From NCBI GenBank assembly GCA_900696455.1, contig CAADGB010000048.1, positions 1-53,384 on the forward strand: DNA of 53,384 nt, in the 5' to 3' direction. The notes under the pieces were generated by a model. That model had not been told where the DNA came from. It did not search any database and saw nothing but the letters and a program-made list of their open reading frames with translations. Within the stretch, counting starts at the first letter, position 1; every line of letters starts with the position of its first letter. Below are positions 1,747-52,251 of this stretch, one piece after another. This stretch comes from an uncultured delta proteobacterium. GTDB lineage: Bacteria > Myxococcota_A > Polyangia > Haliangiales > Haliangiaceae. Position numbers and translations under genes: made by a program.

Positions 1747-3414
1747 TCACCTCCGGGTCACCGCGCCCAGGCCGACGGTGACGAGGCCGCCGTCGTGCTG
1801 GTCGCCGAGCAGGTTGTCGATCGCCGGCGCGTAGCTGCCGGTCAGGCGCGCGGTCAGGCCCCAGCGCCGGGTGAACCACACGTCCACGCCCACGGCGGCC
1901 GCGCCGTAGAGGCCGGGGTAGGCGTCGCTCGTCCTGGTCCCGAGCTGGTCGTGGAAGGTGGTCAGGCCGAGCGCCAGCCCGGCGCCGAGCTGGCCGTAGG
2001 CGACGACGCGCCGGCGCCCGAGCTCGACCCGACCGAACCCGCCCAGCGCCAGCGTGTCCCAGCGCAGGCGCAGCGGCTCGAGCTCGGTGTCGCGCCGCCA
2101 CTCCTCGCCGCCGAGCAGCAGGAGCTCGCCGCCGACCAGCACCCGGGCGTGGAGGCGCTGGGCGAGGTGCACGCCGAGCTGCGGGGAGACGAGGCCCTGG
2201 CGGTGGTAGCCGAAGTCCTCGAGCCGATCGACGTAGCCGTCGCCGCGGCCCGCGCCCAGGCCCGCCACCACCGCCAGGTGCCAGCGCGGCCCGAGGTCGG
2301 CGTCGCCCTTGGCGGTGGCCGCGACCAGGCGCTCCACCGCGCAGCCGTCGAGCGCCACCGTCACCGGCGTCCGCCCCGGCGCCGCCGCGCAGCGCAGGAG
2401 GCGGGTCTCGCCGCGCACCAGCACCTGGTAGCGGCCGGGGGCCACCGCGATCGCGAGCGGCGCGCCCCGCGCCTTGTGGACCTCGGCCACCACCGCGCGC
2501 GCCGGCAGCCGCTCGATCAGCACCTGCCCCTCCGCCGCCGGCGGCAGCGTGATCGACGTGGTCGTCGGCTCCGGGAACGACAGCGGGATCTCGCCCTGCC
2601 CCTTCAGGTCGACCTCGACCGAGACGTGCTGGCTGCCGACCGCGGTCGCCGCGGTCGCGGTGAGGGTGTGGTGGTAGGTGTAGCGGTAGGCCTCGTCGAG
2701 CGAGACCCGACCGTCGCCGTTGGTGTCGGCGGCGCCGCGCAGCCCGACCAGGAGGTGGTGGGTGAAGTACGACGAGCGCAGGAAGTCCGACTCCTGCGAC
2801 AGCTCGCTGTCGGTCGACGACGCCAGCACCGCGATCCCGGTGGCGTCGAGCCGCGCCCGCGAGTTGAACGAGAAGTCGGCCGCCGGCTCGACGCCCTTGG
2901 TGCGCGAGAAGGCGCCGCTCTGGCACGCGTCGAGGACGACCACGGTGAGCGCCGCCGGCACGGCGAGGAGCCGCGCCCGCAGCTCGGCCAGCGGCAGCTC
3001 GGCCGTCCCCAGCGACAGCGCCGCGGCGCGGGCGTGACCGGAGTAGTAGAAGAACAGGCGCGCCGGGCGTCCGGCGGCCGCGACCGCGCGCTCGATCGCC
3101 GCCACCTCGGCCAGGAGGCGGGCCGGCGTCGGCGCCAGCACCACGCGCACGTGCTCCCGCCGGTAGCCGCCGAGGGTGACCAGCAGGTCGGCGACCTCGC
3201 GCGCGTCGTCCTCGGCCCACGCCAGGCGGGTCTGACCGGGGCCGGGTGCGTTGCTGCCCACGACCAGGGCGAAGCCGACCGGCTCGTCGTCGGCCCACGC
3301 CGGGCGCGGCGCGCCGACGGTGACGACGGCCAGGGCGAGCGCCACGAGCGCCGCCGCCGACCGGCCAGCAGCGGTGGAGACGGCGCGCGGGAGCGGTGCG
3401 GAGGCCATGCCCAT
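1747..3414 (-). CDS. secreted caspase-like (C14) protease with C-terminal beta-rich domain
   Basis: A 555-aa protein with a signal peptide (residues about 15-41, ending AWA-DD). The caspase fold spans about 45-260. The catalytic His127 lies in FFYYSGHA and Cys164 in LDACQSG, so the dyad is intact. An EF-hand-like calcium loop (DTNGDGRVSLDE, about 230-241) sits inside the caspase domain, suggesting calcium dependence as in some metacaspases. A PEGA-like linker follows, and residues about 380-555 are a Gly/aromatic-rich beta region resembling an outer-membrane barrel. Cell-envelope placement is inferred. First gene of the operon with the Cys-rich protein and the ECF sigma pair. ATG at 3408 is an alternative start. 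Confidence 0.85.
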   Translation of the reverse strand: MGMASAPLPRAVSTAAGRSAAALVALALAVVTVGAPRPAWADDEPVGFALVVGSNAPGPGQTRLAWAEDDAREVADLLVTLGGYRREHVRVVLAPTPARLLAEVAAIERAVAAAGRPARLFFYYSGHARAAALSLGTAELPLAELRARLLAVPAALTVVVLDACQSGAFSRTKGVEPAADFSFNSRARLDATGIAVLASSTDSELSQESDFLRSSYFTHHLLVGLRGAADTNGDGRVSLDEAYRYTYHHTLTATAATAVGSQHVSVEVDLKGQGEIPLSFPEPTTTSITLPPAAEGQVLIERLPARAVVAEVHKARGAPLAIAVAPGRYQVLVRGETRLLRCAAAPGRTPVTVALDGCAVERLVAATAKGDADLGPRWHLAVVAGLGAGRGDGYVDRLEDFGYHRQGLVSPQLGVHLAQRLHARVLVGGELLLLGGEEWRRDTELEPLRLRWDTLALGGFGRVELGRRRVVAYGQLGAGLALGLTTFHDQLGTRTSDAYPGLYGAAAVGVDVWFTRRWGLTARLTGSYAPAIDNLLGDQHDGGLVTVGLGAVTRR

Positions 3415-3732: not shown

Positions 3733-4115
3733 GACGCGACCTCCCGCGGCGCTGCGAGCGGCGCCGCCGGCGGGAACAGGAGCGCGCCCAGGACCGGTAC
3801 GGCGCCCACCGCCAGCGCCGGGATCCAGCGGGCGTCGAGCCCGAGCAAGACGTTGTCGATGGTGACCGCCCACGACACGTAGGCGGCGGCCCGGATCAGG
3901 TACTGGCCCAGCGGCGCCGGCCGGCGGCGCGACGCCAGGTACAGGACCACGGCGCTGACGAGGATGCCGGACGCCACCAGCGCCAGGGCCGTGGCCGGGC
4001 GCGTGATGCTCCCGGTGGACAGCACGATCGTGTGTACGAACACGACCTCGCCCGGGATCAGCTTGGCGATGGAGTCGATGACCCCGTCGCCGGGCTCACC
4101 GATGGACAGCGACAT
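3729..4115 (-). CDS. small integral membrane protein
   Basis: A 128-aa protein (start ATG 4115) with about four hydrophobic segments: around residues 17-33 (LIPGEVVFVHTIVL), 40-62 (ALALVASGILVSAVVLYLA), 72-85 and 95-115. The family is not recognised. It is the first gene of a two-gene minus-strand unit with the zinc-ribbon protein. It diverges from the GAF/AAA+ regulator across a 207-base region full of GTCCAC repeats, so the regulator may control it. Confidence 0.65.
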   Translation of the reverse strand: MSLSIGEPGDGVIDSIAKLIPGEVVFVHTIVLSTGSITRPATALALVASGILVSAVVLYLASRRRPAPLGQYLIRAAAYVSWAVTIDNVLLGLDARWIPALAVGAVPVLGALLFPPAAPLAAPREVAS

Positions 4116-4197
4116 GCGCTCCCACGGTGCACCGCCCGTGCCCACCTGCGCCCACCGCCGGCGCGCCCGATCGCCGCGCACGGCCAGGGGCCGCCCG

Positions 4198-4278
4198 GTC
4201 CACCTGTGCGTCGAGGGCACGACCAGGTGTCCACTCCACCGGATCCGACCGCGCGACGATGTCCACTCCAGTGGACAC
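4198..4278. promoter_or_regulatory. iterated GTCCAC operator-like sites with a perfect palindrome
   Basis: Between divergent genes, GTCCAC occurs at 4198, 4229 and 4261, spaced 31 and 32 bases, about three helical turns. The last copy is part of a perfect inverted repeat, TGTCCACT-CC-AGTGGACA, at 4260-4277. The second copy repeats TGTCCACTCCA exactly (4228-4238). CGGATC follows at 4240 and 4281. Equal spacing on one helix face is what cooperative binding sites look like. The likely binder is the adjacent GAF/AAA+ protein through its Fis-type helix-turn-helix (inference). Confidence 0.55.
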
Positions 4279-4322
4279 CCCGGATCGCTGTGGGCGTCGC
4301 GCGCATCGGCTACATTCGCAGG

Positions 4323-5825
4323 ATGACGGGGGACGAGATCGTCCGCGAGCGCGACTTCTACCGTCGCCTGCTCGACCTGGGCGGCGCGGCGGAGGTCGAG
4401 CCGCTGCTCGAGCAGGCGCTGGCCCTGGTGGTCGAGGTCACCCGCGCCGAGGTCGCCTACCTCGAGCTCCACGACGACGACCCCGACGACGACGCCCCGC
4501 CCCGCTACTGGCGGGGCCACCACGTCACCTGCGCCGAGGCCGCGACCATCCGCGAGTCGATCTCCCGCGGCATCATCGCCCGCACCCTCGCCGACGGCCG
4601 CACGGTCGAGACCCCGTCGGCCCTCGACGACACCCGCTTCGAGGATCTGGGCAGCGTCCGCCGTCACGAGATCCAGGCCGTCCTGTGCGCGCCCATCGGC
4701 ACCGCGCCGCCCATCGGCGTCATCTACCTGCAGGGCACCGTCCGCCCCGGCGGCTTCGACGCCACCGACCGCCAGCGCCTCGAGCTGTTCGCGCGCCAGC
4801 TCGCCCCCATCGCCGACCGGCTGCTCGCGCCGCGCGCCCGCGCCGCCCTCACCGATCACACCCAGGAGGTGCGTCAGCGCTTCCGCTGTCCGAACTTGAT
4901 CGGCCGCTCGCGTGCGCTGGCCCACGTGCTGCAAGAGGCCTCGCTCGTGGCGCCGCTGGACATCGACGTCCTCATCACCGGCCCGGCGGGGACCGGCAAG
5001 ACCGCGCTCGCGCGCGCGCTCGCCGAGAACAGCCGGCGCGCCGGCGGCCCGTTCGTCGCCATCAACTGCGCCGCGATCCCCGAGACCCTGATCGAGAGCG
5101 AGCTGTTCGGCGCCGAGCGCGGCGCCCACTCGCAGGCCAACCGCAGGCTCCCGGGCAAGGTGGCGGCCGCCGAGGGCGGCACCCTGCTCCTCGACGAGAT
5201 CGGCGATCTGCCGGCCAGCGGTCAGGCCAAGCTCCTACACCTCCTGCAGGCCCGCGAGTATCACCCCCTGGGGGCGACCTCCACCATCCGCGCCGACGTC
5301 CGGATCATCAGCGCGACCAACGTCGACCTGCGCCAGAAGGTCGCCGCCCGCGAGTTCCGCGAGGATCTGTTCTACCGCCTCCACGTCGTGCCCCTGGCCA
5401 TGCCCGGCCTGCACGAGCGCAAGGACGACATCCCCGAGCTGGTCGAGCACGTGTGCGCCGAGGCCTGCCGCCGCCACGACCTGCCGGCGATGACGGTGTC
5501 GCGCCGCGCCCAGCTCGCCTGCCGCGACGCGAGCTGGCCCGGGCACGTGCGCGAGCTCGCCCACGCCATCGAGGCCGCCGTCATCCGCGCCCACGGCGAG
5601 CGCTCGACCGTGGTGCTCGAGCACCACGTCTTCCCCGCCGCCGATCGCGCCGCCGACGACGGCCGCCGCGCCACCTTCCACGAGGCCACCCGCGACTTCC
5701 AGCGCCGCTACCTGCTCGAGCTGCTCGAGGCCAACGACTGGAACGTCGCCCGCACCGCGCGCCAGCTCGAGCTCGCCCGGGCCCACGTCTACAACCTCAT
5801 CCACGCGCTGGGCCTGCGCCGCTAG
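4323..5825 (+). CDS. GAF-domain AAA+ transcriptional regulator (NtrC-like family)
   Basis: A 500-aa protein with a GAF-type sensor (residues about 25-165), a sigma-54-activator-type AAA+ domain (about 195-420) and a Fis-like helix-turn-helix at the C-terminus (NVARTARQLELARAHVYNLI). Walker A is GPAGTGKT near 220. Walker B is GTLLLDEIGDLP. The loop that is normally GAFTGA and contacts sigma-54 reads GAHSQA here. The start at ATG 4323 was chosen because the GAF domain begins directly after it, although the frame is open further upstream. It probably regulates the following two genes and/or the divergent membrane protein pair. Confidence 0.87.
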   Translation: MTGDEIVRERDFYRRLLDLGGAAEVEPLLEQALALVVEVTRAEVAYLELHDDDPDDDAPPRYWRGHHVTCAEAATIRESISRGIIARTLADGRTVETPSALDDTRFEDLGSVRRHEIQAVLCAPIGTAPPIGVIYLQGTVRPGGFDATDRQRLELFARQLAPIADRLLAPRARAALTDHTQEVRQRFRCPNLIGRSRALAHVLQEASLVAPLDIDVLITGPAGTGKTALARALAENSRRAGGPFVAINCAAIPETLIESELFGAERGAHSQANRRLPGKVAAAEGGTLLLDEIGDLPASGQAKLLHLLQAREYHPLGATSTIRADVRIISATNVDLRQKVAAREFREDLFYRLHVVPLAMPGLHERKDDIPELVEHVCAEACRRHDLPAMTVSRRAQLACRDASWPGHVRELAHAIEAAVIRAHGERSTVVLEHHVFPAADRAADDGRRATFHEATRDFQRRYLLELLEANDWNVARTARQLELARAHVYNLIHALGLRR

Positions 5826-5898: not shown

Positions 5899-6597
5899 AT
5901 GCCCACGATCGTGTTCCACGACTGCAGCGTCCATCTGCACAGCCGCGCCACGACGCCCGACGCCCACGGCGCCATGCTCATGTCGTTCTGGGCCGAGGAC
6001 CCGGACGAGGTCAACCGCGACCCCGCCCTCCTCGTCCCCATCGACGAGCTCAGGTCGGTGAGCGCGTACGAGGCCGGCACCATCGCCCTGGCCAGCGTGC
6101 AGTACGACGACGAGCGCCTGGAGCTCGCCCTCACCGGCGGCGCGGTCCGCGGCGTCGTCCGCATCGCCCGCGATCACTGGCAGCGGGCGCGCCTCGACGC
6201 CCGCGTGCGCTGGCCCCTGCGCAACGACGGGCGCGACTACGAGTACATGGAGGTCCTGGTCATCCCCGATCCCGAGACCGCCCCGCCCGGCGCCACCCGG
6301 GTCCGCTACCGCGGCTTCCACGCCCGCGTCGTCGGCGTCGACGCCGGCCAGGTCGAGCTCCAGCTCTGGCACGGCGGCACCTCGCGGATCACGTCGCTGC
6401 CCCAGGTCACGCGGGTCGTGCCGCTCGCCGACTTCGATCCGCTGGCCCAGCTCTTCTACCCGCGCGACGCCCTGGCGCTGACCACGCTCGATCCCGCCGA
6501 TCCCGCGCACCACGAGGGCGCGCTGTTCGTCGCCGAGCCCGCCTACACGCTGTGGCCGCTCAGCATCCCCAAGCTGCCGCCGTCGCACCAGCGGTGA
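5899..6597 (+). CDS. conserved hypothetical protein
   Basis: A 232-aa soluble protein without a signal peptide or transmembrane segment. A good GGAGG lies a few bases before ATG 5899. The sequence is rich in beta-forming stretches (ATRVRYRGFHARVVGVDAGQ). No family or catalytic motif was recognised. Its stop overlaps the GTG start of the small caspase-like gene (GTGA), so the two are almost certainly co-translated. The pair follows the GAF/AAA+ regulator, suggesting one functional locus. Confidence 0.6.
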   Translation: MPTIVFHDCSVHLHSRATTPDAHGAMLMSFWAEDPDEVNRDPALLVPIDELRSVSAYEAGTIALASVQYDDERLELALTGGAVRGVVRIARDHWQRARLDARVRWPLRNDGRDYEYMEVLVIPDPETAPPGATRVRYRGFHARVVGVDAGQVELQLWHGGTSRITSLPQVTRVVPLADFDPLAQLFYPRDALALTTLDPADPAHHEGALFVAEPAYTLWPLSIPKLPPSHQR

Positions 6598-7256
6598 GGG
6601 GCGCCGTGCCTCCCCGGGGCCCGGGCGCGCGCACCGACCCCGAGCCGGTCTGCCTCAACGCCATCAGCGCCGCCGGTGGCGAGGAGCTCGACCTCGTGCG
6701 GCGCGGGGTCCGCGGCTTCGGCGTCGCCTGCGCCGCCGATCTCGCCACGGCCCTCCATCGCCTCGCCGCGCGCGAGGCGCGCCACGCCGGGCCGCCGCCG
6801 GTGCGCGCGCTCGACCTCATCGGCCACGCCGGCGGCGACCACCGCCTGCTCGAGCTCGGCGGCTGGCGGCTCGGCCCCGACGCCGGGACCGCCGCCGACT
6901 TCGCCGCGCTGGCGCCCATCCTGCGCGCGCTCGGCGTGGGCCACGTCCGCCTGCTCGGCTGCGCCACCGCGACCACCGAGGCCGGGCTGCGAACGATGGC
7001 GCGGCTCCCCGCCGCGCTCCAGGCCGGCCCGCGGGCGGGGCCACCGATCCAGGTGTGGGGCAGCCGCGCCCTGCTCGGGCCCCACTGCTACGGCCGCCTC
7101 GGGCTCCTGCCCCGCCACCACGCCCTGCTCCGCCCGTACCCCGCCGCCCCGGCGCCGGGGCGGTCGCTCACCGCGCCAGCTCCGCCGGCCCCCGGCAGCG
7201 CGCGCCCAGCGAGAACAGCCGGGCCCCGACCGGGCGCGGGTTCTCGATGGCCATGA
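6594..7256 (+). CDS. small caspase-like (DUF4347/CHAT-type) protein
   Basis: A 220-aa protein from GTG 6594, overlapping the previous stop. Two short motifs fit the caspase-clan dyad as seen in DUF4347/CHAT-like domains. LDLIGHAGG carries His78 after a hydrophobic strand, and VRLLGCATA carries Cys123 after another strand, followed by TEAGLRTM. The 45-residue His-Cys spacing and the GHA...GC pattern are typical. There is no signal peptide, so it acts in the cytoplasm. The last 30 residues are low-complexity and overlap the convergent kinase gene by 89 bases. The assignment to the caspase clan is by motif only. Confidence 0.55.
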   Translation: MRGAVPPRGPGARTDPEPVCLNAISAAGGEELDLVRRGVRGFGVACAADLATALHRLAAREARHAGPPPVRALDLIGHAGGDHRLLELGGWRLGPDAGTAADFAALAPILRALGVGHVRLLGCATATTEAGLRTMARLPAALQAGPRAGPPIQVWGSRALLGPHCYGRLGLLPRHHALLRPYPAAPAPGRSLTAPAPPAPGSARPARTAGPRPGAGSRWP

Positions 7257-10200
7257 AGTCGACCAGGGCGGCCTCGGCGTCGTCCCACGACCCGCCGCGC
7301 ACCGTCCGAAATCCGGACGAATGATCCGGCGCCGGCGAGGCCGTCCACTCCAGCAGGTTGCCGGCGAGATCGAGGACCCCGTACGGGCTCGCGTCGCCGG
7401 CCGTCGCGCCCACCGGCAGCGGGCCGTGGACCCGATCGCCGTCGCGCAGGCGCACCGGCAGCGGCAGGTCCGGATCCCCCCACGGCAGGTTGCGGCGCGG
7501 CCACGGGTTGGGGCGGCCGTCGGGCAGGACCAGCCCGCCGCGCATCGCCTTCTCCCACTCCGCGCTGGTCGGCAGGTCCTTGCCCAGGTAGCGGCAGTAG
7601 GCGCGGGCCTCGCGCCAGCTCAGGCTCGCCGCCGGGTAGGCGGGGCCGCCGGCGTCGCGCAGCGGCCCCGAGCCGCCGTAGGTCGGCGCGACGATCCCGG
7701 TGACCTCGCTCATCGCCGCGAACGCCTGGAACGCGGCGTTCGAGACCTCGGTCCGGTCGATCGTGAACGCCGGGAGCTGCACGAGCTCCTCCCGGGCCAG
7801 ATCGGGGAAGCCCTGCTTGTAGCGCGACGGCGGCGTGCCCAGGCCGCCGCGGACGAAGGGCCCGGCCGGGACGAGGATGACCCCCGCGGCCGAGGCCTGG
7901 CAGGTCGGGACCCGCACGCTCAGGCGCTCGCCCGCGCCCCGCCGCGCGTAGCCTGGGAGCGCGCGCACCGGGACCACCGACGGCGGGCAGCCGCGGCCGT
8001 CGCGGTCGCGGCCGTCGACCACCAGGAGCGCCGGGCGCCCCGGCGCCTCGAGCTCCTCGTGCCGCCGCACGCCGTCGTCGCCGCGCGCGCCGGCGATCCC
8101 GCGCACGAACGGCAAGGGAGCGCCCGGCGCATCGGGATCGTCGGCGTCGGGCTGGTGGAGCGCCCACCGTAGCCCGGGCAGCTCGGCCAGCGGGACCGCG
8201 CGCGCCGCCCCGGCGTCCGGATCCCAGTCGAAGGCCGAGAGCTCGAGGGTGAAGCGGCCGAGATCGCGGTCGCGCAGGCGCTGCTCGCGCCGGGCCGCGG
8301 CCGCCGTGGTCCGACGGTCGTTCACCGCCAGCCCGACCACCGCCAGCATGATCGCGACCAGCCCGATCGCGGCCAACCGGCTGCGCCGGGCGATCGCGCG
8401 CGAGCGCGCGACCAGCGCCCGCGGCGACGGCGCCAGCGGCGCCCCGCGGCGGCGGCGGCGCTGCCACTCGGCCTCGAGCTCGTCGACGACGCCGGGGTGC
8501 GCGTCGACCTCGCGCAGCTCGGCGCGCGACAGGTAGCGCGGCGCGTCGGCGCGCGCGTGCCGCAGGTGGTAGCGCACCAGCTCCTGGGCGCGGCGGCGCG
8601 CCAGGTCGCGGCGATCGAGCCAGCTCTGGACCCGCGGCACCAGGCTGTCGTGGACCAGCTCCCACGCCGGCTCGCCCCCGGCGCGACCGACCCGGACCCC
8701 CAGGCCGCTGCTGCGCAGGGCCTCGAGCACGGCCGTCACCCGCGCCGGGTCGTGGCTCACCCGGTCGAGCAGCTCGGCCTCGGTGCGCGCGGCGCGGGTG
8801 TGGACGCCGGTGACCAGGGCCAGGAACAGGTCGCGGGCGATGGTCGCGGCCTCGGCGTCGAGCTCGGTCTCGAGCACGCGCTCGAGGTGCTCGCCGACGA
8901 TCGCGTCGAGCCCGCCGAGGCGGCGGTAGTGCTCGAGGGTCAGGCAGCGCTCGTCGGGAGCCAGCGCCTCGTGGAGGACGGCGCCGGCGAGCTGCAGGTG
9001 CGGCGGGTAGACCGCCGGCGCGCCGTCCCACCCCAGCTCCGGCGCCAGCGCGGCGGCGGCGGCGACCAGATCCTCGAGCAGCGCGTCGAGGAGCTCGGGG
9101 GCGATGGCGAGGCGGCGCTCGGTCAGCGGGCGCTCGAGGGCCTCGCGCGCGCCGGCCGCCGCGAGCGGCCCGAGCCGGACGATGGGGGCGCCCTCGGCGC
9201 GCAGGTCGGCGCGATCGAGGAGCCGGGCCAGGTGGTCCTCGCGCACCGCGAGCACGAGCGCCAGCGCCCCGGTTCGCCCGGCGTCGAACGCCAGCAGCTC
9301 CGCCAGCCACCCCCGGTCACCGCGCGCGCGCGCGCCGCCCGGCTCGTCGACGAGCACGGCCTCGAGCTGATCGAGCACGAGCACCACGCGGCCGCCCCCG
9401 GCCAGGGCCACCCGCGCCGCGGCGACGACGTCCTCGGCCCCGGGCGCGAGCCCGGCGATGATGGCCGCGGCCGGCTCGACGCGGCACGAGACGTACAGCG
9501 CGCGCGTCACCAGGCCGTCGAGCCGCGGCAACAGCCCGGCGCGCAGGAGCGAGGTCTTGCCCACGCCCGACGCCGCGGTGACCACGACGCGGGGGCGGAA
9601 CAGGACGTGCTCGACGAGGGCGCTCAGCTCGGCGTCGCGGCCCAGCAGGTGGCCGCGATCGGCCTCGGTGAAGGGCGCCAGGCGGCGAAACGGCGGCGGC
9701 GCGATCGACGGCGCGTCGGCGAGCGCGCCGGAGGCGGCGGCGTCGCCGGCGAGGAGCGCCGCCAGCTCGGCGGCGCTGCTGGGTCGGGCGGCGGGGTCGA
9801 TCGCCAGCGCCCGGGCCAGCGCGGCGCGCAGCCGTGGGTCGCCGACCTCGTCGAGCGGCGGCACCAGCTCGCTGGCCCGCCGCCGCCGCCAGCCCGTGAG
9901 CAGGGCGACCAGCACCAGCCCGACCGCGAACAGATCGGAGCGGGCGTCGACCCGCCCGTCGCGGAGCTGCTCGGGCGCCATGAACGCGGGCGTCCCGCCG
10001 GCGGAGTCGGCGGCGGCACCGGCGGCGCGCAGCCGGGCCAGGCCGAAGTCGACCAGCACCGCGCGCTCGCCGTCGCGGCCGTCGACGACGATGACGTTGG
10101 CCGGCTTGACGTCGGCGTGGACCAGGCCGGCGTCGTGGGCGGCCCCCAGCCCGGCCAGGAGCTGGCCGACCAGCGCCACCGCGCGGGCGGGCTCGACCGG

Positions 10201-11298
10201 GCCGGCGTCGATCAGCTCCTGCAGCGTGCGCCCGGCCAGGAGCTCCATGGCGAAGAAGAGCCGCCCGTCGTGGGCGACGTCGGCCTGGTGGATGCGCACG
10301 ACGTTGGGGTGATCGATGCGACCGACCGCCTGGATCTCCTGCAGGAAGAGCTGGCCGTCCGCGGACGCCGGATCGACCGGCGCGTGCAGCACCTTGACCG
10401 CGACGTCGCGGCCGACCGCGAGCTGGTGGGCGCGGTAGATCGTCCCGAAGCTGCCGCGCGCCAGCTCGGCCACGACCTCGAAGCGACCGGGCAGCACCAC
10501 GCCCTCGAGGCCGCCGCCGGGCGGCGCCGCCTCGGGCCCCGCGGCGGCGGCGGTGGCCCCCGGCGACCGCCGCGACCAGCCCAGCGCGAAGCGGCGCGTC
10601 AGGGACGGCGGCGCCACCACGGTGGCCGGCGCGCCGGCGTCCGCCGACGCGTGGAGCGCCGCCGCCGGCAGGCGCGCGCGCAGGCACGCCGCCAGGCTCG
10701 CGGTGGTCACCGTGCCGGTGGTCGGATCGAGGGCGTCGCCGGCCAGGGCCTCGGCCAGGGCGGCGATGGCGGTGGCCCGCGCCGCGCGCTCGACGACGAC
10801 CAGGTGGTGGGAGGCCGGCGGCCCCAGCGCCGCGAGGACGTCGGCGGCGGTCCAGGCCTCGCCCGCCGACGCGCGCAGCGACACCACCGCCACCAGCGGC
10901 GACGCCCGCGCGCCGCGCAGCCGCTCGCCCAGCCAGCCGAGGTCCAGGGTCGCGTCCTCGGGGTACGCGCCGACCACGGGCGCGTCGGGCGCCGCCACCA
11001 GGGCCAGCCGCCCGCCGAGCCGCCGCGCCGCTCCGGCCACGGCCAGGAGCGCCGGTCCGTCGCCGTGCGCGGCGAACCCGTCGAGCGCCACCTTGAGGTG
11101 GAGTCGATCGGGCGCCGCCTCCGCCCCGTCGCGGGCGGCGAGCCGGCGCACCGCCCACGCCGGCCCCGCGGCCAGGAGCAGCTCGCCCACCCGCGCCAGC
11201 GCCGCCGCCTCGTCGCCGCCGTGCCCCGCGACGAGCACGGCCGGGTGACGGCCCGGATCCGCGGCCCTCGCCACGGTCGTCACCTGGCTCGCATCCAT
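7168..11298 (-). CDS. pseudo-caspase / Ser-Thr kinase / STAND ATPase / FGE-like fusion protein
   Basis: A 1376-aa protein from ATG 11298. Residues 1-215 resemble the caspase-like domain found in conflict-type fusion proteins: LDLGWLGERL is followed by LVAVVSLRAS and TGTVTTASLAACL, but the expected catalytic Cys position reads S-L. Residues about 270-530 are a kinase: glycine loop RGSFGT, Lys302, HADVKPAN (Arg of HRD replaced by Ala), DFGLARL and APEQ. Residues about 555-950 form a STAND-like ATPase with SGVGKTS and VVLVLDQLEAV. A transmembrane helix lies near 1010. The C-terminal ~230 residues are an FGE-sulfatase/SUMF1-like domain (VPAGPF, LPTSAEWEKAMRGG, GNLLEWT, VRGGSW). It is probably a membrane-anchored signalling protein. 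Confidence 0.9.
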   Translation of the reverse strand: MDASQVTTVARAADPGRHPAVLVAGHGGDEAAALARVGELLLAAGPAWAVRRLAARDGAEAAPDRLHLKVALDGFAAHGDGPALLAVAGAARRLGGRLALVAAPDAPVVGAYPEDATLDLGWLGERLRGARASPLVAVVSLRASAGEAWTAADVLAALGPPASHHLVVVERAARATAIAALAEALAGDALDPTTGTVTTASLAACLRARLPAAALHASADAGAPATVVAPPSLTRRFALGWSRRSPGATAAAAGPEAAPPGGGLEGVVLPGRFEVVAELARGSFGTIYRAHQLAVGRDVAVKVLHAPVDPASADGQLFLQEIQAVGRIDHPNVVRIHQADVAHDGRLFFAMELLAGRTLQELIDAGPVEPARAVALVGQLLAGLGAAHDAGLVHADVKPANVIVVDGRDGERAVLVDFGLARLRAAGAAADSAGGTPAFMAPEQLRDGRVDARSDLFAVGLVLVALLTGWRRRRASELVPPLDEVGDPRLRAALARALAIDPAARPSSAAELAALLAGDAAASGALADAPSIAPPPFRRLAPFTEADRGHLLGRDAELSALVEHVLFRPRVVVTAASGVGKTSLLRAGLLPRLDGLVTRALYVSCRVEPAAAIIAGLAPGAEDVVAAARVALAGGGRVVLVLDQLEAVLVDEPGGARARGDRGWLAELLAFDAGRTGALALVLAVREDHLARLLDRADLRAEGAPIVRLGPLAAAGAREALERPLTERRLAIAPELLDALLEDLVAAAAALAPELGWDGAPAVYPPHLQLAGAVLHEALAPDERCLTLEHYRRLGGLDAIVGEHLERVLETELDAEAATIARDLFLALVTGVHTRAARTEAELLDRVSHDPARVTAVLEALRSSGLGVRVGRAGGEPAWELVHDSLVPRVQSWLDRRDLARRRAQELVRYHLRHARADAPRYLSRAELREVDAHPGVVDELEAEWQRRRRRGAPLAPSPRALVARSRAIARRSRLAAIGLVAIMLAVVGLAVNDRRTTAAAARREQRLRDRDLGRFTLELSAFDWDPDAGAARAVPLAELPGLRWALHQPDADDPDAPGAPLPFVRGIAGARGDDGVRRHEELEAPGRPALLVVDGRDRDGRGCPPSVVPVRALPGYARRGAGERLSVRVPTCQASAAGVILVPAGPFVRGGLGTPPSRYKQGFPDLAREELVQLPAFTIDRTEVSNAAFQAFAAMSEVTGIVAPTYGGSGPLRDAGGPAYPAASLSWREARAYCRYLGKDLPTSAEWEKAMRGGLVLPDGRPNPWPRRNLPWGDPDLPLPVRLRDGDRVHGPLPVGATAGDASPYGVLDLAGNLLEWTASPAPDHSSGFRTVRGGSWDDAEAALVDFMAIENPRPVGARLFSLGARCRGPAELAR

Positions 11299-25789: not shown

Positions 25790-31738
<5,949 letters not shown>

Positions 31739-31914
31739 GAGTTCTCCCCGGAGGGCGCACCACGAGCGGGCGCCCGGCAAGGCGAAAATTGTACCGCCAA
31801 CGGGCGGATATCCCCAAGCCCGCGATGGGACCACCTGGCCTCGGCGGGCGTGCGCAACCGCGCGCCGTTCGCCGGGTTTCTGGCGGCCGTGGTCAGGCCG
31901 TGGTCAGGCCGTGG
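31739..31914. other. intergenic region upstream of the OmpA fusion
   Basis: A 176-base gap with both neighbours on the minus strand. It is slightly less GC-rich around 31785-31800 (AAAATTGTACC) and contains the tandem motif GTGGTCAGGCC repeated three times near 31888-31921, at the end of the neighbouring 794-aa gene. No clear promoter hexamer pair was found. Confidence 0.4.
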
Positions 31915-34299
31915 TCAGGCCAGCAGCCAGTGGGGCTCGGTGCTCCAGCCCACGAAGACCCGGGCCTCGGGCGCGGTGTGCGCGCCCGGGCTCATCCCGG
32001 CGGCCGCGAGGCAGAGGCCGGCGTAGGCCGGTCCGAAGCGGCGACGGAAGGCCACGGGCGCGGCGGCCAGGCGCTCGCCGGCCCAGGTCACGAGCTCGCG
32101 CTGGGCCGGCGCCGGCAGGAGCGCGGCGAAGAAGGTCATCTGCCGCCAGGCGGCGGCCGCGGCGCGGATCGCGCGCAGCTGGTGGACGCGGCGCGGCCGC
32201 GGCGTCTGCAGGAGGCGCGTGGCCTCGTCCCACGCCCGCCGGGCCAGCGCCGGCAGGCGGGCGGCGATGCGGGGCGACAGCCCCAGCCCGCCCACCAGCG
32301 CCGCCAGGTTGTGGGTGGTGAGGATCTGCGCCTGCTCGAGGATCGTGCCGTTGTGGGCGGGGCGACCGAAGGGCGAGGTCGCGCCGGCGCGCTCCATGCA
32401 CAGGGACATCAGGCCGGGCGAGATCGGCGTGCCCCAGCGCGACGGCGCGGCGTCGTCGAGCGCGGCCAGGCGCGCCACCGGGAGGTCGTAGTACGTGGCG
32501 TAGAGCGTGCCGGCGAGGAAGCGGGCGGCCTGGCGGGCGGCGCGCAGGAACGTCTCGGACAGCTCGCCCATGAAGATGTCGGCGGCGAGCTCGTCGACGA
32601 GGGGCAGGGCCAGGCCGGCGCGCTCGGCCAGCGCCCGCACCTCCTGCAGCAGCTTGTTGGGCAGGGGCGTCGCCGGCCAGGCGCAGACCGCGACGTCGAC
32701 GACGCGCCCGAGCGCCCGCCGCGCCGCCACGCGGGTCGCGGCGTCGTCGACGCGCGCACCGGTGATGGCCTCGGCCCACGGCAGCTCGCGCAGACGCACC
32801 TGGTGGGCGAGCCGGAGCAGGAGCAGCGAGCGCCGCCGCCGGAAGGCGCGGTAGAGCGCGACCAGGACGCGCCGCAGCGCGGGATCGCGGACGCCGGCCG
32901 CGACCACCGGCGCGGTGAGCTGCGGCACCACCGCCGCCAGCACCTCGGGCGAGCCGATCACGCCGGCGTCGACCAGCCGCTCCACCGGCGCCTCGAGGCT
33001 GCGGCGCACGATCGCGCGCAGGTGGTCGGCGCGGTCGGCGCGGTCGCGGGGTCCGGCGGGGCCGGCGCCGGGCGCGGGCGCGGTCCCGTCGGCGAGGTCG
33101 GCGCGCTCGGTGCGCTCGGTGCGGGGCGCGAGCGCGGCGCCGGCGGGCAGCCCGTGGGCGGCGGCCTCGGCGGCGGTGACGTCGGCGCGCAGGCCGGCCA
33201 GCGTGGCCCGCCCCCGATCGCCGGGGACCGCGGCCAGCCGCGCCGCGACGACGCGGGCGGCCTCGGCGGGAGTCGGGCGCGCGACCCGCCGCCGCTGCGC
33301 CGCGCGCAGCGCCTCCAGCCGCGGCGAGCCCGGCCCTCCGCGCGCGCGCTCGATGCGGGCGAGGATGCCGCGCAGCTCGCCGACGTGCCGCCCGGTGAGC
33401 GACGCCGGATCGGCGACGGCGCGGCCGAGCAGCGCGTGCAGCCGCGCCAGGTTCGAGCGCGGGTGATCGACGCGGCGGCGGCAGCGGTGGGGCTCGGCGC
33501 GCCGCGCGCTGACCTCGTCGTCGAGGGCGCCGGCCCGCTCCGCCCAGCCCGCCGGGTAGCGCTGACACGGCCAGCCGTCGACCACGGTCTCGGCGAACAG
33601 CGCGACCATGCGATCGACCAGCGGCGCCCACACCGTCGCCGCCTCGCGCTCGGCCAGCCGCCGCGCGCGCTCGCGCACCGCCTCGAGCTGCGCGATCGTG
33701 GCCGCCACCGGCTGCAGGCACACCGCGTCGTCGTCACCGCCGGTGGCCGCCGGCGGCCCCGGCTGCGGGTAGAAGCGGAGCTGCCCCAGCCACGGCCCGA
33801 GCTGCTCGAGGATCGCCCGCGCCTCGTCGGCGCCGTCGTGCGCGACCAGCCACGCCACCACCAGCAGCGCCGCCTCCTCGGGCACCTCGACGCGGTAGGC
33901 GCCGTCGTCGAGCCACGCCCGCAGCTCGGCCTGCCCCGCCTCCGACAGGTACCAGGCGTTGAGCGCGCCGCGCGCCGGCGCGTCGGCCGCCACTCCCAGC
34001 CGCGCCAGCAGCGCGCGCTCGTGATCCAGCAGCTCGCCGCCGGCCAGCAGCCGGCCGGTGGCGAAGCCGCCGTGCGCCACCTCGAGCGTCGCCCACGCCG
34101 GCGCCGCGGTCGGCGTCCGCGACCCGAGCTCCAGCGCGCCGCTCACCATCCCCTCGAACACCTGCCGCCAGCGCTCGACCCGCGCCCGCGCCCGCGCCCG
34201 CGCCGCCGGGTCCGGGTGCTCCTCGGCGGTCGTCAGCGCCCGCGCCAGCTCCCCCAGCGCGAACCCGGGGCTCGCCCGGACGTCATCGGCGTCGGCCAC
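31915..34299 (-). CDS. large hypothetical protein of unknown family
   Basis: A 794-aa soluble protein, strongly helical and rich in Arg and Ala. It has no signal peptide and no membrane segment. The best conserved-looking part is the C-terminal third: FLAGTLYATYYDLPVARL, PFGRPAHNGTILEQAQILTTHNLAALVGGLGL and WRQMTFFAALLPA. Residues around 400-440 are a Gly/Pro/Asp-rich linker. The start is GTG 34299, since the frame further upstream is low-complexity and overlaps a repeat array, so the exact start is uncertain. I cannot name a family or function. It stands alone and diverges from the LolA-like gene. Confidence 0.6.
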   Translation of the reverse strand: MADADDVRASPGFALGELARALTTAEEHPDPAARARARARVERWRQVFEGMVSGALELGSRTPTAAPAWATLEVAHGGFATGRLLAGGELLDHERALLARLGVAADAPARGALNAWYLSEAGQAELRAWLDDGAYRVEVPEEAALLVVAWLVAHDGADEARAILEQLGPWLGQLRFYPQPGPPAATGGDDDAVCLQPVAATIAQLEAVRERARRLAEREAATVWAPLVDRMVALFAETVVDGWPCQRYPAGWAERAGALDDEVSARRAEPHRCRRRVDHPRSNLARLHALLGRAVADPASLTGRHVGELRGILARIERARGGPGSPRLEALRAAQRRRVARPTPAEAARVVAARLAAVPGDRGRATLAGLRADVTAAEAAAHGLPAGAALAPRTERTERADLADGTAPAPGAGPAGPRDRADRADHLRAIVRRSLEAPVERLVDAGVIGSPEVLAAVVPQLTAPVVAAGVRDPALRRVLVALYRAFRRRRSLLLLRLAHQVRLRELPWAEAITGARVDDAATRVAARRALGRVVDVAVCAWPATPLPNKLLQEVRALAERAGLALPLVDELAADIFMGELSETFLRAARQAARFLAGTLYATYYDLPVARLAALDDAAPSRWGTPISPGLMSLCMERAGATSPFGRPAHNGTILEQAQILTTHNLAALVGGLGLSPRIAARLPALARRAWDEATRLLQTPRPRRVHQLRAIRAAAAAWRQMTFFAALLPAPAQRELVTWAGERLAAAPVAFRRRFGPAYAGLCLAAAGMSPGAHTAPEARVFVGWSTEPHWLLA

Positions 34300-34362
34300 G
34301 ACGCGGAGCGTACTCCGTCCGCGGACCGCGAGCGCGGTCTTGAAGATCCGGCGTGGCCGGAG

Positions 34363-34411
34363 CGTCCATGCCCGTCCATGCCCGTCCATGCCGTGCATGC
34401 CCGTCCATGCC
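34363..34411. repeat. 10-bp tandem repeat CGTCCATGCC
   Basis: CGTCCATGCC occurs at 34363, 34373, 34383 and 34402, with a 9-base variant GTGCATGCC at 34393. The array lies in the divergent spacer between the 794-aa gene and the LolA-like gene. It has a period close to one helical turn. It may be a protein-binding array or simple slippage. Confidence 0.75.
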
Positions 34412-34499
34412 CGCGACCCGAGGCAGGAGCGGGGCCCTCGGCCTCCCTCCCGAGCACCCTTCAGGAGCAGGCGCGCGCCGGCCCGGCACGCGATTGCTG

Positions 34500-34527
34500 T
34501 TGACCCGCGCCATGGATGGGTTAGTAC
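34500..34527 (+). promoter_or_regulatory. possible sigma-70 promoter for the LolA-like gene
   Basis: TTGACC (34500-34505) and TAGTAC (34522-34527) are separated by 16 bases, about 60 bases before ATG 34588. The -35 match is good (5 of 6) and the -10 is moderate. It is the best promoter candidate in the 288-base divergent region. Confidence 0.4.
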
Positions 34528-34587
34528 CGTCCGTCTCCCTCGCTCCCCTCGTCCTGATCGCCCCGATCGCCTCGTCGAGACCCCGCC

Positions 34588-35400
34588 ATGAAGCTCGCCG
34601 CGCCCCCCACCCTCCTGCTCGCCCTCGTCGTCGTCGCGCTGGCCCCCGCCCCCGCCGACGCCAGCCCCCCCACCGGCCGCGAGGTGCTGGAGCGGCAGGA
34701 GGAGGCGCGCCGGCTGCCGTCGTTCCAGGCCCGCGCCATGCTGTCGACGACGCGCGCGGGCGAGGCGGCCAAGGCGGCCAAGAAGTTCCGCTGGTGGCGC
34801 AAGCTCTCCGCCGACAAGGTCCACTTCGTCACCCTGACCCGCTTCGACGAGCCGGCGACGATCCGCGGCGAGGGCGTGCTGATCCGCGAGGGCAAGAGCG
34901 CGAACGACGTGCTGCTCTACCTCCCCCACTTCAAGAAGGTGCGCCGGGTCGAGGGCCAGTCGCAGAGCTCGAGCTTCTTCGGCTCGGTCTTCAGCTACTC
35001 CGACGTCGCCATGACCCACGCCGATGACAGCACCGCCAAGGTGCTGCGCGAGGAGGCCTGCCCCGGCGAGACGCTGACGTGCTGGGTCGTCGAGATCAGC
35101 CCGGCCACGCCGGCGGTCCGCGACCGCACCGGCTACAGCCGCAGCGTGCAGTGGATCCGCCAGGACAACTGGGTGACGGTGGCCGGCGACTTCTACGACA
35201 AGAAGGGCAAGCTGTGGAAGCGGCTGACGGCGCGCGAGGTGAAGGAGGTCGATCCCAAGGCGAAGAAGTGGCTGCCCCACCACGTGACGCTCGAGGACGT
35301 GCAGAAGCGGCGGACGACCGTGCTGCGCCTGGCCGACGTGAAGGTCAACGTCAGCCTCGACGACTCGCTGTTCACGGAGCAGAGCCTGGCCAGCGAGTGA
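34588..35400 (+). CDS. LolA-like outer-membrane lipoprotein-sorting protein
   Basis: A 270-aa periplasmic protein with signal peptide (cleavage near PADA-SPP). It matches the LolA-like family (TP0789-type) with segments such as FQARAMLSTTRA, LTRFDEPATIRGEGVLIREG and LLYLPHFKKVRRVEGQSQSSSFFGS, the last being typical of the RND-associated subgroup. CPGETLTCW may form a disulfide. These proteins carry lipids or lipoproteins and often stand beside MMPL/RND transporters. None is present here, but a porin-like gene follows with a GTGA overlap. Confidence 0.85.
   Translation: MKLAAPPTLLLALVVVALAPAPADASPPTGREVLERQEEARRLPSFQARAMLSTTRAGEAAKAAKKFRWWRKLSADKVHFVTLTRFDEPATIRGEGVLIREGKSANDVLLYLPHFKKVRRVEGQSQSSSFFGSVFSYSDVAMTHADDSTAKVLREEACPGETLTCWVVEISPATPAVRDRTGYSRSVQWIRQDNWVTVAGDFYDKKGKLWKRLTAREVKEVDPKAKKWLPHHVTLEDVQKRRTTVLRLADVKVNVSLDDSLFTEQSLASE

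Positions 35401-51890: not shown

Positions 51891-52251
<361 letters not shown>

Follow-up and report, generated by a model that had tools for sequence, protein, structure and literature searches.

The window analyzed here is a 53,384-nucleotide stretch, contig C48 (CAADGB010000048.1) of the 7.98-Mb draft genome of an uncultured delta proteobacterium (GCA_900696455.1; family Haliangiaceae). It contains a four-gene locus (Table 1) in which a large gene, encoding the protein P1 of 1376 amino acids (aa), converges on a small gene, P2, whose product carries a conserved His-Cys pair. P1 combines a predicted caspase-fold domain devoid of the catalytic dyad with a protein kinase, an nSTAND1 NTPase, a hydrophobic helix and a domain resembling formylglycine-generating enzyme (FGE). 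Its codon-position GC content is coding-like (GC3 0.97 vs GC2 0.56), as is typical of genes in the window, and the existence of 14 independent homologues excludes a chance observation. P2 likely starts at the GTG at 6594, with its stop at 7256; its 5′ end overlaps the 232-aa gene by 4 bases and its 3′ end overlaps the end of the P1 gene by 89 bases.

Table 1 Features of the P1–P2 locus, with positions in the window and the basis of each assignment
Feature	Position	Strand	Basis
GAF-AAA+-HTH_8 regulator resembling bacterial enhancer-binding proteins (bEBP-like); true start probably near 4323	4032..5825	+	Pfam, loop inspection
232-aa conserved protein, directly upstream of P2	5899..6597	+	Recurs at homologous loci
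P2, His-Cys protein of 220 aa (His encoded at 6825-6827, Cys at 6960-6962) and candidate cysteine protease of a clan-CD-like type	6594..7256	+	Open reading frame, alignment, model
P1, pseudo-caspase / kinase / nSTAND1 / membrane helix / FGE-like protein, 1376 aa	7168..11298	−	ATG start, open reading frame, Pfam, homologues
P1 FGE/C-type-lectin-like domain, residues 1137-1368	7195..7890	−	Pfam FGE-sulfatase, E 1.4e-28
P1 hydrophobic helix, residues ~975-992, Arg-rich N-side	8323..8376	−	Inspection
P1 nSTAND1 NTPase, residues 536-908, Walker A SGVGKTS	8575..9693	−	Pfam, E 2.6e-41
P1 Ser/Thr protein kinase domain, residues ~271-520	9739..10488	−	Pfam and motif inspection
P1 pseudo-caspase domain, residues ~17-235; His-equivalent A90, Cys-equivalent ~R142; invariant D191xxTG..T..SL	10594..11250	−	AlphaFold2, Foldseek/VIA, alignment, entropy

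The caspase relationship of the P1 N-terminus is invisible to sequence searches. Residues 1-237 had no match in Pfam, no caspase family was retrieved up to E 10 with any of 14 members, and PDB sequence searches were equally without caspase evidence. In contrast, the AlphaFold2 model of the domain (pLDDT 79, pTM 0.82, from an alignment of eight sequences) matched caspases throughout: all 41 PDB matches of Foldseek at E ≤ 0.001 were to caspases or to paracaspases, MALT1 leading with E 5e-6. VIA-align placed the MALT1 paracaspase first (Z 16.5, rmsd 2.8 Å over 177 residues), followed by metacaspases, caspases and legumain, and 50 of the 50 matches listed were caspase, metacaspase or legumain relatives, the caspase-8:c-FLIP complex (3h11) among them. 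On this predicted model, residues 17-235 have the clan CD caspase fold. In profile comparison, the 14 homologues aligned collinearly with caspases of Kofleriaceae along 179 columns (E 0.0048, where five further pairs scored 0.22-0.97), a match that is weak taken alone, yet consistent with that fold. The original prediction, read from the letters, had proposed a caspase-like frame lacking the catalytic Cys and named structure prediction as its test; the caspase fold was obtained, and the sole Cys within the first 237 residues lies in 'AACLRA', away from the catalytic position.

The profile alignment places the catalytic His at A90 (SGHAR in caspases, AGAAR in P1) and the Cys near R142. The dyad is missing from the window's P1 and from all 14 homologues; the His-equivalent column reads AVSPQVASEPPEGP and lies at the 95th percentile of variability (entropy in the homologue alignment), and in the homologue L045/L060 the catalytic position is occupied by Cys, but the His is lacking. 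An active C14 caspase peptidase is thus ruled out for the P1 N-terminus, as the dyad is absent and its positions are variable. Across sequences only ~33-45% identical to that of the window, 12 columns of the domain are nevertheless invariant. The strongest conserved motif is D191xxTGxVTxxSL, and the invariant 'GLxGxALDPxTGTVTxxSL' can be matched by eye to 'GLRGAADxNGDGxVxLDE' of caspases. Because a caspase-fold model coincides with loss of the dyad in every homologue and with unconserved dyad positions, P1 residues ~17-235 are, as modeled, a conserved pseudo-caspase, constrained at sites other than the former active site. "Degenerate", the term used for the domain at the outset, therefore suits the catalytic site but not the domain, which retains invariant motifs of its own.

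The remaining domains proposed for P1 (a kinase, a SGVGKTS ATPase, a membrane helix and an FGE-like C-terminus) were all confirmed by Pfam and inspection; the motifs read in the protein are LDLGWLGERL, TGTVTTASLAACL, HADVKPAN and SGVGKTS. The kinase (Pfam match at residues 274-469, E 2.4e-35) is of the non-RD type (HAD) with its catalytic residues present, and its signature (VAVK, HADVKPAN, DFG, APE) is conserved in the homologues and altered in one, L046; kinase and Walker motifs are both retained among them. In nearly all homologues, an Arg-rich stretch was seen by inspection to precede the hydrophobic helix, which probably puts the N-terminus in the cytoplasm and the FGE-like domain in the periplasm. 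True formylglycine-generating enzymes have an active-site Cys pair within their C-terminal RGG..C region; this pair is absent from the P1 C-terminus (RGGSWDDAEAALVDF) and from its relatives, which rules out a true formylglycine-generating enzyme.

P2 presents the opposite picture at its putative catalytic positions. The motifs DLIGH and RLLGC hold a His that is invariant (23/23) and a Cys present in 22 of 23 sequences, the exception having Cys one place later. Pfam DUF4347 matched 6 of 12 members weakly, the window's P2 scoring 12.3 bits, under the gathering cut-off of 24.6 bits. The AlphaFold2 model (pLDDT 74.5, pTM 0.70, alignment of 5 sequences) was closest in VIA to Tce1 (Z 11.2) and then to CHAT, toxin CPD and C11 proteases (Z ~7-8). 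Tce1 (PA0256) belongs to DUF4347 as well (PMC8262886) and is a putative cysteine protease (PMC13323088), so the two independent signals agree; P2 is a candidate clan-CD-like cysteine protease and a putative protease effector. As in Tce1 and the toxin CPD/CHAT peptidases, the conserved His and then Cys end successive core strands; P2 differs in falling below the DUF4347 cut-off, in having no secretion link and in being the partner of a receptor kinase. Profile comparison gave no similarity between P2 and the pseudo-caspase, and the models place P2 not as its paralogue but in a different, DUF4347/Tce1/CHAT/toxin-CPD-like branch of clan CD. The convergent arrangement and the His-Cys pair read in a small caspase-like gene stand, whereas the suggested active/inactive caspase pair is weakly supported. 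Beyond Kofleriaceae, weak matches to P2 (E 1e-7 to 8e-4) lacked shared neighbors and were set aside as probable alpha/beta-hydrolase 'GHS' look-alikes. Second, shorter P2 copies with their own 232-aa-gene homologue occur near or at the same locus in L054, L038 and L051.

A search of public genome contigs with an alignment of 7 sequences retrieved 7 loci, all in myxobacterial or deltaproteobacterial metagenome-assembled genomes (MAGs), and relatives in public records are MAGs labeled Kofleriaceae, Myxococcales and Deltaproteobacteria; the clade is referred to here as Kofleriaceae on this basis. No plasmid record covered 80% of P1, the matches listed being at the domain level (kinase/FGE) only. 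Among 35 genomes of the order, the pseudo-caspase domain was found in 10, and wherever the contig is long enough to tell, it forms the N-terminal part of a long protein. Neighborhoods were assembled from gene calls and BLAST on the fetched loci, with P2 identified by an iterated profile. They reveal a repeated Kofleriaceae order, in which the bEBP-like regulator, the 232-aa gene and P2 are co-directional and, at most loci, converge on P1 (P1 and P2 share direction at L108 and L110). P2 was detected at nearly all loci examined, and the regulator lies near most of those that bear it. Where a pseudo-caspase locus has enough contig, P2 is present in 9 of 11 cases, bearing out the expected co-occurrence of the 220-aa and 1376-aa genes in a conserved neighborhood. 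The exceptions are L046, from which P2 is absent, and L049, where its place is taken by a protein of 170 aa that bears an HExxH-like motif (HESVH; L049:6703-7215), the 232-aa gene is missing and the FGE half of P1 is exchanged for a PBP-like domain with the pseudo-caspase still fused (L049:7277-10657). L049 looks as if sensor and effector were exchanged together.

A query with the region between nSTAND1 and the FGE domain additionally found P1 homologues of ~1030-1125 aa without the pseudo-caspase, and 6/6 of their loci have P2 and a nearby regulator. On the tree, no more than two gains or losses of the domain are required (the placement of L105 is unsettled in it). As P2 occurs at all six loci without the pseudo-caspase and so few changes are needed, the core is the regulator, P2 and the kinase–STAND–FGE protein, to which the pseudo-caspase was added later or from which it can be lost. 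The window also encodes, at 1747-3414 (−), a protein of 555 aa whose caspase domain looks intact (SGHAR, DACQSG; Peptidase_C14, E 4.9e-7); no other canonical caspase domain occurs in the genome. It was rejected as a part of the system, because it has no recurrence at other loci and Peptidase_C14 genes of similar size are present as single copies in most Kofleriaceae genomes.

The regulator shares the GAF-AAA+-HTH order of NorR/PspF-type bEBPs and differs in its sigma54-contact loop (5121-5138), where GAFTGA has given way to GAHSQA in the window and, in most relatives, to GAHSTA. In PspF, only Tyr can replace the Phe of this motif and support activation (PMC2941729), and scans of the sequences preceding P1, the 232-aa gene and the regulator gave no conserved sigma54 promoter above background. 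Dependence of the regulator on sigma54 is doubtful for these reasons, and bEBP-like regulators of this clade, with GAHSTA or GAHSQA, may work without it. Neither Pfam nor NCBIfam matched the 232-aa protein.

Among known systems, P1 most resembles the STAND NTPase-FGS proteins, whose forms with a caspase or kinase domain at the N-terminus have been described as counter-invader systems (Kaur et al. 2021, PMC8195603). Its predicted domains reproduce their architecture, with a central nSTAND1 and a C-terminal FGE/C-lectin fold, both above Pfam cut-offs, behind an N-terminal kinase and pseudo-caspase. P1 differs in stacking these two N-terminal domains, in the membrane helix before the FGE domain, in its constant P2, 232-aa and bEBP-like neighbors and in that no diversity-generating retroelement (DGR) was found. 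Related conflict systems commonly contain caspase domains that are non-catalytic (Kaur et al. 2020, PMC7159879), and the vWA-MoxR ternary systems likewise carry a dyad-less caspase-fold domain, proposed to be dominant-negative or peptide-binding, on a conflict-type protein; the scaffold of P1 is instead kinase-STAND-FGE, and the neighboring window proteins scanned had no Pfam match to vWA or MoxR. Bacterial pseudo-orthocaspases (PMC6426788, PMC7889975) also have a p20-like caspase fold without His-Cys, whereas P1 is of an A/R type at unconserved positions, has no Pfam match and is myxobacterial. The Klemencic type, with a p20 sequence domain and commonly Tyr/Ser for His/Cys, is ruled out by the lack of a Pfam caspase match and of a Tyr/Ser pair. 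STAND–FGS proteins that begin with a caspase or kinase domain were thus already known, as were pseudo-orthocaspases and the non-catalytic caspases of ternary conflict systems; the combination on one protein, the caspase fold missed by sequence search and the fixed P2/232-aa/regulator neighbors are new. No paper describing the combination was found in the open literature, which is not proof of absence.

In this soil relative of the myxobacteria, the locus looks like an apoptosis-style signaling or defense system with a non-enzymatic caspase part. The reading we favor, with about even confidence, is that P1 is a membrane receptor of the STAND-FGS conflict kind known from multicellular bacteria, in which the pseudo-caspase has a docking or regulatory role and P2 is the protease effector. 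The FGE/C-type-lectin-like domain, probably periplasmic, would sense a ligand; the cytoplasmic nSTAND1 NTPase would act as an ATP-dependent oligomerization switch and the kinase would relay the signal onward. The pseudo-caspase would then serve as a non-catalytic module for peptide binding, docking or dimerization, and P2, produced with its 232-aa partner and the GAF-AAA+ regulator with the altered sigma54-contact loop, would be the likely enzymatic effector, possibly under the control of P1 and with defense or cell suicide as the outcome.

Several points weigh against this reading, which is drawn from genes and predicted models, with no phage association. The P2 model was built from just 5 sequences, and Foldseek by itself returned no significant match for it; neither P2 nor the 232-aa gene matched a known defense system, and the PADLOC kinase matches were generic. 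The FGE domain probably lies outside the membrane, while in the published model it senses intracellular invaders. No DGR diversifying the FGE domain was found, reverse transcriptases being on other contigs only of the fragmented assembly, and the last 213 bases of P1 had no template-repeat-like copy in it, only matches of 38-70 bases at 79-87%; diversification of FGE by DGRs in STAND-FGS systems is frequent, not universal. Finally, restriction to Kofleriaceae and the presence of the regulator would also suit a role in developmental signaling.

Such a developmental or envelope-stress module, in which the receptor kinase senses the envelope and alters expression through the bEBP-like regulator and P2 proteolysis, with no defense or death, is somewhat unlikely in our estimation. 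The regulator is co-directional with P2 at most loci, the host genome has >100 kinase matches, like social myxobacteria, and lineage restriction suits a clade-specific signaling circuit. However, published conflict systems typically show the STAND-FGE architecture and a protease-like gene, and patchy presence (the 10/35 genomes with the pseudo-caspase form), several copies per genome and module swapping resemble such systems; the lost GAFTGA loop and missing conserved sigma54 promoter also count against it.

The original prediction suggested an active/inactive pair. In a c-FLIP-like form of it, the pseudo-caspase on the receptor kinase-STAND ATPase would bind P2 directly and gate this separate small cysteine protease, switching it allosterically on or off, in principle a prokaryotic counterpart of the control of caspase-8 by c-FLIP. 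A caspase-fold pseudo-enzyme is indeed convergently linked to a His-Cys gene, 3h11 is among its fold matches, and in vWA-MoxR systems the caspase-like domain of the vWA component is nearly always paired with one on VMAP. We consider such a pair improbable: related, always co-occurring partners are not what was found, as the pseudo-caspase and P2 belong to different branches, and the linkage is not specific, P2 being present at each of the six loci without the pseudo-caspase and missing at two that have it. Least credible is a decaying, functionless caspase remnant, which the freely drifting catalytic positions and the leftover-like lone Cys of L045/L060 would suit, but which is at odds with the 12 invariant columns, the intact modeled fold and the retention of the domain where the sensor was exchanged (L049).

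Under our preferred receptor reading, P1 represents a sequence-invisible caspase fold that persists, stripped of its catalytic site, in a kinase–STAND–lectin receptor adjoining a conserved protease-like gene. As a compact and testable example, it would let pseudo-caspase function be studied in a bacterium rather than in animals, and its four genes form a defined locus for asking whether relatives of the myxobacteria rely on apoptosis-like proteolysis for defense or for development.

Elsewhere in the window, a 1122-aa open frame at 31915-35283 (−) is without a Pfam match. The gene at 25790-31834 (−) encodes a 2014-aa protein made of HYDIN/ASH-type Ig repeats with an OmpA domain at its end, families familiar chiefly from proteins of eukaryotic cilia, and a tmRNA gene with the tag ANDNAVALAA lies at 51891-52251 (+).
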